Below are positions 40,983 through 46,397 of a stretch of DNA of 64,000 nt, piece after piece (the stretch's first letter is position 1; each line of letters opens with the position of its first letter). The notes under the pieces are model-generated. The model did no database searches and was not told the DNA's origin. It worked only from the letters and a program-made list of their open reading frames with translations. Made by a program: the position numbers and the translations under genes. The DNA is from Planctomycetota bacterium (GTDB lineage: Bacteria > Planctomycetota > UBA1135 > GCA-002686595), in contig JABABA010000018.1 in the NCBI GenBank assembly GCA_014238415.1, positions 23,679-87,678 of the forward strand, given 5' to 3'.

Positions 40983-41018
40983 CCTAAAATAACTAGGTAG
41001 AAATATCTGTATTTTAGG
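40983..41018 (+). terminator. Possible AT-rich inverted repeat terminator after the sulfatase
   Basis: CCTAAAATA (40983-40991) / TATTTTAGG (41010-41018), 9-bp perfect inverted repeat directly at the stop codon. Confidence 0.45.
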
Positions 41019-41028
41019 TATTTTCCCC

Positions 41029-41057
41029 TGGACAGCCCCTGGCAACCCCTCTATAGT
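41029..41057 (+). promoter_or_regulatory. Sigma70-like promoter upstream of structured RNA element A
   Basis: TGGACA (41029-41034) - 17 nt - TATAGT (41052-41057). Confidence 0.5.
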
Positions 41058-41073
41058 GCCCCACATAAGCCAA

Positions 41074-41163
41074 GCGGTTCAGCCCTCGACCTTCGGGAAT
41101 GAGGGGCAGCCCCGGGAGGGAAGGAGAGACTCTCCCGGCGGTTGCAACCGGATCCTGAAACGC
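41074..41163 (+). ncRNA. Candidate structured RNA element A (leader or ncRNA)
   Basis: Closing stem GCGGTTCAG (41074-41082)/CTGAAACGC (41155-41163), one mismatch; hairpin CCCTC/GAGGG with C(UUCG)G cap; hairpin CCGGGAG/CTCCCGG presenting AAGGAGAG; palindrome CGGTTGCAACCG (41139-41150); related to element B. Confidence 0.55.
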
Positions 41164-41175
41164 GGCACCGTCAAA

Positions 41176-41628
41176 ATGTCCTACACCTGCCAAGCCATGA
41201 TTACCCCCACCTTCCCCAACCCGACGCGCACTATCGCCCTGGACGCAGCTCGGGTCGATGCCGTACGAAACATGCAAGCCCCTGCCCTGGCCGCCGCAGA
41301 TGCCGCACGAGCAGCCGCTACCCTGGCATACGATCACGCCGCCCGTGCTACTCGACAGGGCCTTTCTGCGGAGTGCTACCGCGCAGGCGCCCACCAGGCC
41401 ACCGCCGCCGCCAACAACGCCTACACCGCCGCTCGCGCAGCCGCTGTCTTTGGAGAGGTGGATGTAGCCTATCAGGCGGCTGTGGCCGCTTACGACGCGA
41501 CAGCAGCAGCCAACGCCGCTGCCCGCACCGCGCGCCGCAGACGGAGTTCGGTGCACAGGAAGGTCGCGCGCTACAGTAGTTCATCGAGGCTTGACACGAT
41601 GAACGCTTGCTCCAACTCGTCAATCTGA
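41176..41628 (+). CDS. Ala-rich small protein with Arg-rich stretch, hypothetical
   Basis: MSYTCQAMITPTFPNPTRTIALDAARVDAVRNMQAPALAAADAARAAATLAYDHAARATRQ...AANAAARTARRRRSSVHRK; 13 nt after element A; no clear SD. Confidence 0.45.
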   Translation: MSYTCQAMITPTFPNPTRTIALDAARVDAVRNMQAPALAAADAARAAATLAYDHAARATRQGLSAECYRAGAHQATAAANNAYTAARAAAVFGEVDVAYQAAVAAYDATAAANAAARTARRRRSSVHRKVARYSSSSRLDTMNACSNSSI

Positions 41629-41994
41629 TTGGCACCCAGCAGGCTCGCAACCTGCGCCCCCCATCCCTGGGCGCTCCTCGGATGACCCGATGCACAAGTG
41701 AGTGGGCCGCGACACTCCTCGCTCTCTCAGCCTGAGTTGCTCAGAATCTGCTCTGGGCCCTTGAACGGCGAATCGACAAGCAGCTCGTATGCTTGAATGG
41801 GAAACCCACCAGAGCGGGTCCGCGAAAACCCTGACAGGTCGCAGATGAAACCTGCGAGAGCCGCGGAAGCCCCTGGAGCCCGCAGGCCTGGAGCCCAAAG
41901 CTGCTGAGCCCCGCCAGGAACCAACAAATATAAGGGCGATTTCTTTCTAATTTAGGGATTTCCCCATGTTGTATAAGATATTACCCGATGTATG

Positions 41995-42099
41995 ATGTGA
42001 GCACTGAGCCGTGAGGCGCAGCCCGCGACCTTCGGGACCGCGAGCACCGCCGGGAGAGAAGGAGAGGCTTTCCCACGGTTGTCATCACAGAGCTCACAT
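41995..42099 (+). ncRNA. Candidate structured RNA element B (stand-alone small RNA)
   Basis: Perfect 8-bp closing stem ATGTGAGC (41995-42002)/GCTCACAT (42092-42099); UUCG-capped hairpin 42024-42042; hairpin 42046-42079 presenting AAGGAGAG; similar to element A; followed by two terminator hairpins and no ORF. Confidence 0.6.
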
Positions 42100-42112
42100 G
42101 AAGAGGAGACCC

Positions 42113-42138
42113 GGGAAGGCGCCTGTAGGCGCCTTCCC
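42113..42138 (+). terminator. Terminator-like hairpin T1
   Basis: GGGAAGGCGCC-TGTA-GGCGCCTTCCC, 11-bp perfect stem; weak T tract (CCTTCT). Confidence 0.65.
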
Positions 42139-42178
42139 CCTTCTACCTCTTAATTCAAACAACTAAGGAGAAAGAGGA

Positions 42179-42212
42179 GCGGGAAGGCGCCTGTAGGCGC
42201 CTTCCCGCTTTT
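42179..42212 (+). terminator. Intrinsic terminator T2
   Basis: GCGGGAAGGCGCC-TGTA-GGCGCCTTCCCGC followed by TTTT; 13-bp perfect stem; same 26-nt core as T1; could also serve the convergent minus gene. Confidence 0.85.
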
Positions 42213-42273
42213 ATTGGCAGATCCCGTGGCTGCAACGCCCTCACAACCTGAGGGCAGGATCCTTGAAGGAGAC

Positions 42274-43056
42274 TCAAATCCCTTCATTCCAAACCAGGGC
42301 CAGGCAGGTGACCCCCGCCTCCGCTGCCAGAAATTCTGAAATCGCGGTGGTCTCAACCTGCAGGCCCGCTGCGCGCACGCGTTCCACGCTACGAGGATGT
42401 TCCTCAGGCATCACCAGCACCTCACCGACCATGAGAGCATTGGCGCCAAAAGGCTCGCGGCCGTCGACCACAATGCGTCGAACACCTTCGGCGCGATCCA
42501 AGTCCACCCACTCAGGTTGCAACAACACCGTGTCAGGGGCCACCATGCAGGCGCCAGTCTTGAGGTGCAACGCCCCGCGTACTGGAGCGGCCTTGACCCG
42601 CAGACCGTGGGGCAGAACCCCGTGGGCCAGTTCCTTCAAACCTGCATGATTGGTGCGCGAGCCCTGGCCGCAGAACAAGACGTCCCCCAGCCGCAGGAGA
42701 TCGCCCCCATCCAGAGTGGCCTGCTCTCCCACCACTTGCACCCTGGGACGATCCTGAGGCAGAAATGGCAAGAGGGACTCCAATTCAAAGCGCCGGTCCG
42801 CTACGCCGGGACGGGCACAAACCACCACGTCCTCGAATACACGCGCCGGGTCCTCAACAAAACAAGCGTCTGGCGCGTCCTCCAAGGCCGGCAAGACCTT
42901 GACCGCTACACCGAGCCCGCGCAACAACTCCGCCAGCCCCGCATGTTGTTCCCGCGCCCGTTGCAGGTCAATTCCCCGGCGCTCAAGGTAGGTCAACTGG
43001 CAAGCCCCCAGGTCTTCCCCGGGCGAACGCATCAATGCGGTCAATGGCCTAGTCAT
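42274..43056 (-). CDS. Dimethylarginine dimethylaminohydrolase/arginine deiminase superfamily protein
   Basis: PDACFVEDPARVFEDVVVCARPG; TLDGGDLLRLGDVLFCGQGSRTN; HLKTGACMVAPDTVLL. Confidence 0.85.
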   Translation of the reverse strand: MTRPLTALMRSPGEDLGACQLTYLERRGIDLQRAREQHAGLAELLRGLGVAVKVLPALEDAPDACFVEDPARVFEDVVVCARPGVADRRFELESLLPFLPQDRPRVQVVGEQATLDGGDLLRLGDVLFCGQGSRTNHAGLKELAHGVLPHGLRVKAAPVRGALHLKTGACMVAPDTVLLQPEWVDLDRAEGVRRIVVDGREPFGANALMVGEVLVMPEEHPRSVERVRAAGLQVETTAISEFLAAEAGVTCLALVWNEGI

Positions 43057-44932
43057 AGATCAGAGTGTCAAGCGTTGCTGTACTGACAGCATGGTAGAGC
43101 GGACGCGCCTGTGCATATATGTGTCTGGCCCGGGTCCGGCCCTCGGGACTTGCGCACAAGGCCGAGTACAGGGGCACAAGATATTTACGCCGGCCAACGG
43201 TCAGCAGGAACTCCTCCAGGCGCTGCTGAACACCTTCGTACCCCCCCTTGATGCCAAGCTCAAGCCAGGCGCAAAGCACCTCTGCGTTCCCCGTGGAGGT
43301 CAGATCAAATCTCAGATCCAAGGACTCAAGCAATTCAGGACCAGCATCCTGGCGAAGGCCATGGATCATGCGCAGCCATTGAAAAGTATTCCAATCAGCG
43401 GTCTCGATCTCGCCTGGATCTGTCCCGGCGATCAATCGCGAGACCGCCGCGTCCACCATCAGCAGCGGCTCGCTTACCGCCTGAGGGGCATCATCGGGCA
43501 GACCCGGTCCGCGTAACCAGAGGTCAAGATCCAGATTTGCCATGGCCCCCGGCCGCAACTCTGACAACCCATGCAATAGGTACTCCTCAAAGTCTGCTGT
43601 GCTCGCACTCCGAAAGGCACGTCCTTCGAACCAGCCGCGCAAGAATTCATCCACATCCTCACGCCCCACCAACTCTTCAATGCGGCGCAGGAGAAGCGCT
43701 CCTTTCTCGTAGGGCACCCAGGAAAATCCCATGTCAGGGTGATGACCCTCGAGATCAATGGCCAATACAGTCTGCCAAGGCTCCAGTGTCTCCATCTCGG
43801 CCAGCAACTCCGTGCGCGCCAAGGCCTTCTCCATGTTGGAACGTGGGACCCCATAGAGCGCCTCGATGATTCGCTGCTCGCAATAGACCGTAAAACCCTC
43901 GTTGAGCCAGAAATCCTCCCAGGTCTCGTTGGTCACCAGATTGCCAGACCAGGAGTGAGCCAACTCGTGGGCAATCAAGGAAATCAACGAGCGGTCCCCC
44001 GCAAGAATCGTCGGGTTCACAAAGGTCAGTAGAGGATTCTCCATTCCCCCGTAGGGAAAAGCCGGGGGCAGGACCAACACATCGTACCGGCCCCAGCGAT
44101 AGGGCCCGAAAAGTTGCTCAGCGGTGACAAGCATGGCATCCAGATCTGCCAGTTCATCCGCCGCCAGATCGATGGTGGCAGGCTCTGCAAAGATGGCAAC
44201 CCGAGGAGAAATCGCACGGCGCTCCAAGCGACCACAAGCCAGGGCAATCAGATAGGGGGGAACTGGCAGACTGAGCTCGTGTTGCCACAACAAGCGCCCT
44301 GGATTTCCTGGTATTTCCTGAGCACCCGTGCCTTCGCCACTCATGACCACGCGAAGTTCCCGGGGCGCGCTCACCTCTGCACTCCAACTGACCCGATTCC
44401 CCGGCGTGTCCTGAATCGGCAACCAGGAACGGGTCAAGATCGCCTGGCCCTGGCTGTACATGAAAGGCTGCAGGGTGCTGGCGGTCTGCTCAGGACCCAG
44501 CCACTGCAGAGCCTCCCCCCCGGGTCGGGTACTCCAGCGGACCGTGACCGCTTGATCAGCTGCATGCAACTCGATCACAAGGGCCTGCCCAATTCGCTCC
44601 TGGGGAGCGCTCAAGCTGAACTCACGCGGCTGGCCTTCAGGGCCCCACACCGAAATGCCATCCAAATCCGCCACATCCAAGATCAAGGGGGCTCCAGGAT
44701 CTGTTCGTTGAAGGGAATAGACCGCCGTCCCGTGCAAGCGGCGGGCCTCGAAATCCAGCTCAAGGTCCATGTCCACATGGCTCACAGCCACCAGCCAAGG
44801 TCGGCTGGCCGAATGCTGATCCCAGTTGGCCGGCGCCTCCGGACAATTCGGGGGTTGCGCAACTTTCCCGCCTTGGCAACCAGCAATCACCAGCAACCCG
44901 GCTCCAAGAATCACCCTCAGTGGTTTTTCCAT
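43049..44932 (-). CDS. M1 family metallopeptidase (lipoprotein)
   Basis: MEKPLRVILGAGLLVIAGCQGG lipobox; LIAHELAHSWSGNLVTNETWEDFWLNEGFTVY. Confidence 0.9.
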   Translation of the reverse strand: MEKPLRVILGAGLLVIAGCQGGKVAQPPNCPEAPANWDQHSASRPWLVAVSHVDMDLELDFEARRLHGTAVYSLQRTDPGAPLILDVADLDGISVWGPEGQPREFSLSAPQERIGQALVIELHAADQAVTVRWSTRPGGEALQWLGPEQTASTLQPFMYSQGQAILTRSWLPIQDTPGNRVSWSAEVSAPRELRVVMSGEGTGAQEIPGNPGRLLWQHELSLPVPPYLIALACGRLERRAISPRVAIFAEPATIDLAADELADLDAMLVTAEQLFGPYRWGRYDVLVLPPAFPYGGMENPLLTFVNPTILAGDRSLISLIAHELAHSWSGNLVTNETWEDFWLNEGFTVYCEQRIIEALYGVPRSNMEKALARTELLAEMETLEPWQTVLAIDLEGHHPDMGFSWVPYEKGALLLRRIEELVGREDVDEFLRGWFEGRAFRSASTADFEEYLLHGLSELRPGAMANLDLDLWLRGPGLPDDAPQAVSEPLLMVDAAVSRLIAGTDPGEIETADWNTFQWLRMIHGLRQDAGPELLESLDLRFDLTSTGNAEVLCAWLELGIKGGYEGVQQRLEEFLLTVGRRKYLVPLYSALCASPEGRTRARHIYAQARPLYHAVSTATLDTLIYD

Positions 44933-45077
44933 GGGGACATGCTGCGACCCGGGACGCGAAGCGCAAGCCCCAAGGCATAGCAACTTTTTGAGATCGGGCA
45001 ACTGGATGCCCGAGACGGCTTCACCGTGAGCTAGGCTCGGGGACCAATCTGCCCCAAGCCCAATTCCAAGCCCACCC

Positions 45078-46397
45078 ATGTTCTCACTCTTTCTTGCTGC
45101 AACCTGCGCGCTTTCCCCCCTGCCACAAGCGGAATTGCAGGGGGTTCACTGCGGCCAGTTCTGGAGCGATCCAACGGAAGATGCGCAGGCCAACGTGCTG
45201 CTGCTGATTCGAGAGGGGAAAATCGAGCAGGTCCTGACCGAAGGCGAAGACTGGCCCGAGAACATCTTGATCCATGACCTCACAGACACCTTCGTCATGC
45301 CTGGGTGGATTGACTGTCATGTGCACTTGACAGGGGAACTCAGCCGGGAATCGCGTATGGAATATGTGACCCAGTCCGAAGCGACTGTCACCCTGCGCAC
45401 GGTGCTGCACGCACGCCGTACAGTGGAAGCAGGCTTCACAACGGTGCGCGACCTGGGTGCAGACACGGGCGCGATCTTCGCAGTGCGCGATTCGATCACC
45501 CGCGAGGAGATTCCCGGCCCCCTGATCCTGGCTGCAGGCAGCGCGGTGACTCCTAGCGGCGGCCATGGAGATCCAACTCACGGATTCCGCGAGACTCTGT
45601 TTGACCTTCCGGGGATTTCTGAGGGCGTTGCAGACGGAGTCGCGCAATGCCGCGCAGCCGTACGCCATCAGGTGCGGCGGGGCGCAGATGTAATCAAGCT
45701 GACCGCCACAGGAGGCGTACTCTCTGACACGGCGGCAGGCACAGACCAGCAGTTCTTCGAAGACGAGTTGAGTGCGATCATCGACACGGCTCACATGCTC
45801 GGGCGCCGAGTGGCAGCCCACGCACACGGCCCCACGGGAATGGCAGCCGCCTTGAGAGCAGGAGTGGATTCAATCGAGCATGGGTCCTTTCTCAACGAAG
45901 AGTGCCTGACCCTCTTCCTTGAGCACGAAACCTGGCTCGTGCCCACACTTCACGCAGGCCAGACCGTGGTGACCTATGCCGGGGACCCAAACTGGTTTCC
46001 GCCAGCGATCGCACGCAAGGCGCGCGAGGTGGGGCCAGTGATGATGAGTTCACTGGGAAAAGCCCACAAAGCAGGCGTGCGCATTGCATTTGGCACGGAC
46101 TGTGGAGTTGGTGCCCATGGCAAGAATGCTGAAGAATTCAGCCTGATGATCCGGGCGGGAATGAGCCCCACCGCTGTCCTGACCGCTGCCACCCGCGGTG
46201 CGGCGCAACTCTGTGGGCTGGAAGCGACCCACGGCCGCCTGGCACCGGGCTTTGCGGCCGATCTGGTGGCTCTAGGAGGAGATCCACGGGTGTCTATCGA
46301 ACTCACGGAACGTCCCGTAGCGGTCATGCGGGGCGGTCGCAAGGTTCTCTGGCAGGGCCAACGAGTGGCCTGGAAGGAAGTGACCCAGCAGAAATAA
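45078..46397 (+). CDS. Secreted metal-dependent amidohydrolase
   Basis: FVMPGWIDCHVHLTGELS; AHAHGPTGMAAALRAGVDSIEHGSFL; AFGTDCGVGAHGKNAEEF. Confidence 0.88.
   Translation: MFSLFLAATCALSPLPQAELQGVHCGQFWSDPTEDAQANVLLLIREGKIEQVLTEGEDWPENILIHDLTDTFVMPGWIDCHVHLTGELSRESRMEYVTQSEATVTLRTVLHARRTVEAGFTTVRDLGADTGAIFAVRDSITREEIPGPLILAAGSAVTPSGGHGDPTHGFRETLFDLPGISEGVADGVAQCRAAVRHQVRRGADVIKLTATGGVLSDTAAGTDQQFFEDELSAIIDTAHMLGRRVAAHAHGPTGMAAALRAGVDSIEHGSFLNEECLTLFLEHETWLVPTLHAGQTVVTYAGDPNWFPPAIARKAREVGPVMMSSLGKAHKAGVRIAFGTDCGVGAHGKNAEEFSLMIRAGMSPTAVLTAATRGAAQLCGLEATHGRLAPGFAADLVALGGDPRVSIELTERPVAVMRGGRKVLWQGQRVAWKEVTQQK

Follow-up and report, generated by a model that had tools for sequence, protein, structure and literature searches.

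A putative small RNA gene duplicated together with a sulfatase gene in a single genus of Planctomycetota

Introduction

Two hairpin-rich segments, A and B, lie close together in a 64,000-nt stretch of DNA (the window) from a Planctomycetota metagenome-assembled genome (MAG; 3.7 Mb, 89% complete), and a preliminary description presented them as two related structured RNA elements of an undescribed family. What kind of RNA might they specify, and why are there two? To our knowledge, few small RNAs (sRNAs) have been described in Planctomycetota, and our literature search on planctomycete sRNAs returned nothing specific. Here, we analyse the locus by comparison among related genomes and propose that A and B are probably two copies of one previously undescribed sRNA gene that underwent duplication.

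Results

Two homologous copies wider than first delimited

The two hairpins originally reported for each element, one capped by CC-UUCG-GG and the other with the sequence GGGAGrGAAGGAGAGrCTyTCCC, were both found in A and B at the positions claimed. The relatedness of the elements also held, as a blastn search of the whole genome with A as query matched B beyond chance, with an E value of 5.6e-8, and uncovered no further significant match. The limits first assigned (A, 41074-41163; B, 41995-42099) enclose the hairpins but fall short of the full extent, since the A/B alignment extends further upstream to take in TTTAGGNATTTNCCCC together with a -10-like hexamer, and the unit is wider, from boxes starting at 41012 and 41951 to terminators reaching 42215 (Table 1). 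The RNA structure fits the + strand because G-U pairs, which make up 20 of the 187 paired cells in the eight-sequence alignment by our own count, would be mismatches on the - strand, and because the folding z-score of A is lower on the + strand (-2.6) than on the - strand (+0.2); that of B is about -2 on either strand.

Table 1. Positions in the window of the features of the A and B copies and of the spacer between them
Feature	Position	Strand	Sequence or detail	Basis
Upstream box, copy A	41012..41028	+	TTTTAGGTATTTTCCCC	common to A, B and C forms, -49 to -52
Promoter-like hexamers, copy A	41029..41057	+	TGGACA-17-TATAGT	10/12 matches
Candidate sRNA, copy A	41063..41163	+		covariance model hit; orthologs in G001 and G005; pair counts; consensus fold
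Hairpins, copy A	P1 41067-41080; P2 41082-41107; P3 41107-41144	+	P2 with UUCG	
P3 loop, copy A	41121-41129	+	AAGGAGAGA	
Alanine-rich ORF	41176..41628	+	150 codons	in frame in three species
Decayed sulfatase gene copy	41565..41890	+	residues about 275-355 and 540-550	colinear
Upstream box, copy B	41951..41965	+	TTTAGGGATTTCCCC	alignment with A and C upstream regions
Promoter-like hexamers, copy B	41969..41996	+	TTGTAT-16-TATGAT	read from sequence
Candidate sRNA, copy B, with first terminator hairpin	42003..42150	+		covariance model hit
Hairpins, copy B	P1 42006-42019; P2 42021-42045; P3 42046-42079	+		
P3 loop, copy B	42059-42067	+	AAGGAGAGG	
First terminator hairpin, copy B	42113-42138	+		
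Second terminator hairpin	42180..42215	+	same stem sequence; U-rich tail CTTTTATT	sequence

Three hairpins and an invariant loop

Three hairpins are retained across A, B and a diverged single-copy form, C, although their stem sequences differ, and all 8 copies share one and the same apical loop, AAGGAGAG. In the eight-copy alignment, the bases proposed to pair in these hairpins do so in 91.7% of cells, as against ≤59% in slid controls; 6 pairs and 12 cells changed on both sides, compared with shuffle means of 3.7 and 4.7, and the covariation score of 0.243 versus 0.169 was reached by 0/500 shuffles. Because the alignment had in part been adjusted to a previous model of similar structure, and its eight copies amount effectively to three divergent forms, the covariation in favour of a conserved secondary structure is suggestive, good but not decisive. 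RNAalifold, run on all copies with no structure supplied, returned the same three side-by-side hairpins. The strongest case for conservation at the RNA level is P3, whose stem is rewritten from GGGAGAG/CUUUCCC in A/B to UCGAAAGAG/CUCUUUCGA in C around an unchanged AAGGAGAG loop. Six copies have UUCG as their P2 tetraloop, whereas the A copies of two related genomes (G001 and G005) have UCCG. The z-scores for folding, between -1.1 and -3.0, are modest. RNA identity between the window and G001 is 97-99%, compared with 92.5% for the surrounding 8 kb. Single-nucleotide indels separate the forms, so that the element is unlikely to encode a protein.

The stem that had been thought to close both A and B was, in contrast, abandoned: its score is at chance level (5'/3'-end duplex energies rank 53-309 of 500 shuffles), it is broken in orthologs and it is missing from the RNAalifold consensus. 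In B (ATGTGAGC/GCTCACAT), the 5' arm of this stem shares positions with the putative -10 hexamer TATGAT (41991-41996), and the pairing is disrupted in G001 (ATGTGTGC); in A (GCGGTTCAG/CTGAAACGC), one pair is lost in G005. An alternative pairing of a 5' GAGCC with the 3' end is available in each form, with single-sequence folds switching between the two, and received no backing from shuffles.

Rfam 15 yielded no match at the gathering score in the window, and permissive scans of the A, B and C loci returned only matches to the terminator hairpins and chance matches. Among them, sub-threshold matches to the mir-4716 and P31 models, far below their gathering scores, overlap the paired terminator hairpins and are attributable to a perfect inverted repeat rather than to the RNA element.

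Promoter-like regions, an upstream box and terminators

All forms carry TTTTAGGNRTTTNNCC, or a close version of it, ~49-52 nt before the RNA start. This pattern is confined to the locus in the five genomes scanned and constitutes in C a dyad, TAGG-N7-CCTA; it is possibly the binding site of a putative dedicated activator. The promoter-like hexamers of copy A are the only sigma-70-like match that a promoter scan retrieved between 40.9 and 42.3 kb (shuffle mean, 0.4), and they are mostly retained, with a variable spacer, in G001 and G005. Those of copy B fall under the cut-off of the scan and are near-invariant in the same two genomes, and form C displays the hexamer TAGACT with no obvious -35.

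At the other end, the B and C forms share a terminator hairpin along with GACCCGGGAAGG on its 5' side; copy A is devoid of a terminator. The hairpin is followed by T7 in C and is duplicated in B, where the second one was also matched on the - strand in our scan and is thus terminator-like for the convergent gene as well. Between the convergent genes, the perfect hairpin GGGAAGGCGCCTGTAGGCGCCTTCCC occurs in two tandem copies (42113-42207). The promoter-like region, the box and the homologous terminator of B and C together suggest that the ancestral unit was a stand-alone sRNA gene of ~140 nt.

These features also bear on whether the hairpins could instead be 3'-UTR elements of the sulfatase mRNA, serving its stability or processing. 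A starts ~80 nt past the sulfatase stop codon, and a sulfatase gene or a remnant of it accompanies the RNA in all five species that have it. However, what separates the stop codon from the RNA is promoter-like, namely a conserved box and a -10-like hexamer with a free spacer, and B has been retained next to a dead sulfatase copy, so we regard a 3'-UTR origin as unlikely.

One locus in one genus

Homology and synteny are evident from sequence comparison with four further species of the same genus of marine Planctomycetota, which raise the count to eight copies in five species. G001 and G005 hold both copies in the same place and G002 and G004 the single diverged copy of form C; in all five species, the locus is flanked by a sulfatase gene and a DDAH/ADI-like gene. 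In G003, assigned to the same genus, the gap between the sulfatase and DDAH-like matches is only ~37 bp and contains no RNA; neither a DDAH match nor the RNA was found in G006. The DDAH/ADI-like gene of the window overlaps an M1-family peptidase gene (42274-45079), and the two genes adjoin in at least two other genera too (L117 and L121).

Covariance models were run over 151 relatives (R1) and over 81 family, 154 class and 394 phylum genomes (R2). Beyond the genus, R2 disclosed no convincing relative in these three sets, the large searches having used stricter filters with which weak matches may be lost. Other matches had E ≥ 0.001, and the top ones inspected lay mostly in apparent coding sequence. 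An exact scan of GTDB representatives for the core motif recovered 10 loci, of which 4 are this locus in other species and 6 are chance occurrences. As far as searched, the family is therefore restricted to one genus. The preliminary view of related structured RNAs of an undescribed family thus stands on the lack of an Rfam match and on the compensatory changes among A, B and C; it has to be narrowed to a genus-confined family whose closing stem is unsupported.

Two copies that flank ~900 bp, along with an RNA missing from the corresponding gap in G003, might also be expected of a mobile or repeated element (REP-like or a transposon end) that folds by chance. Against this, no further copies were found in the own genome or its relatives, nor any in phages and plasmids, and the intervening DNA is mostly sulfatase remnant rather than transposon cargo, which renders such an origin extremely improbable.

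Tandem duplication with the neighbouring gene

Between A and B, the DNA retains a stretch of sulfatase gene, decayed and colinear. Indeed, the G001 spacer matches the sulfatase gene of the window at 67% over 217 bp (blastn, E 8e-16), and sulfatase pieces in the ortholog spacers (tblastn, E 2e-6 to 8e-6) contain stops and are ordered to residue 550. This arrangement indicates that a [sulfatase + sRNA] block, including part of the adjacent sulfatase gene, was duplicated, and we thus interpret A and B as products of its tandem duplication. What had been introduced as two elements is better read as one sRNA gene tandemly duplicated with the sulfatase gene, since a single copy occupies this locus in the C-form species.

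An alanine-rich ORF is located between copy A and the sulfatase remnant. Its substitutions in three species are biased towards third codon positions (between the window and G001, for instance, they number 9, 15 and 29 at the first, second and third positions), which suggests that it is probably translated; a longer frame (41056-41625) has no Pfam match. As the ORF begins 12 nt past A, A could be regarded as its riboswitch-like, cis-regulatory leader. Yet B and C are followed by a terminator and a convergent gene rather than by an ORF, and the ORF was observed only in the duplicated lineage; we deem a leader function very improbable.

Discussion

We favour a history in which a single ancestral gene, persisting in two sister species, would have consisted of a promoter-like region with the upstream box, ~95 nt that fold as three successive hairpins, and an intrinsic terminator, specifying an RNA of ~140 nt. 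In the lineage of the window, the [sulfatase + sRNA] block was duplicated in tandem; the second sulfatase decayed, B retained the terminator and A lost it. The sRNA would be of an ordinary kind, new and clade-restricted. Its duplication history is informative, since single-copy, duplicated and terminator-less forms are all represented and offer a view of a young RNA gene evolving.

From this organisation we infer that the unit is transcribed and plays an sRNA role, with the loop as its contact site. The RNA would most probably act in trans and independently of Hfq, its third hairpin exposing AAGGAGAG either to pair with CUCUCCUU-type sites in mRNAs or to mimic a Shine-Dalgarno (SD) sequence that contacts the tail of 16S rRNA or else a protein that binds GGA. 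We put this loop-contact mechanism forward tentatively, as a possibility rather than an expectation. The 11-nt loop complement CTCTCCTTCTC has 22 sites including the locus, none of which besides the locus is common to all five species; in G000 and G001 alike, one site directly precedes an ATG. A more elaborate proposal, that this is a young Hfq-independent sRNA family whose hairpin-loop SD mimic (AAGGAG) titrates either the anti-SD of the ribosome or a protein that binds GGA, and that it gained copies through sulfatase-linked duplication, strikes us as distinctly unlikely. The invariant SD-like loop provides a testable prediction on the mode of action of the RNA. The genomes apparently lack Hfq: no PF17209 match was detected in G000, G001, G002, G004 or G005, with positive controls.

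CsrB and RsmZ are sponges for CsrA that present many loops with a GGA-type motif. The RNA described here likewise has a hairpin loop with an A(N)GGA motif, but a single one instead of many, and no CsrA gene (PF02599) was found in its own genome, an 89% complete MAG in which absence is no proof; a CsrA sponge was accordingly discarded. Some trans-acting bacterial sRNAs combine a hairpin-loop seed, as in RNAIII-type loop seeds, with an intrinsic terminator. Unlike RNAIII-type seeds, which are C-rich and anti-SD, the loop of this RNA is purine and SD-like, and it further differs from the comparison set of trans-acting sRNAs in that neither Hfq nor a matching Rfam family was found. It resembles them in its promoter-like region, its stable hairpins, its invariant loop and, in the B and C forms, its terminator.
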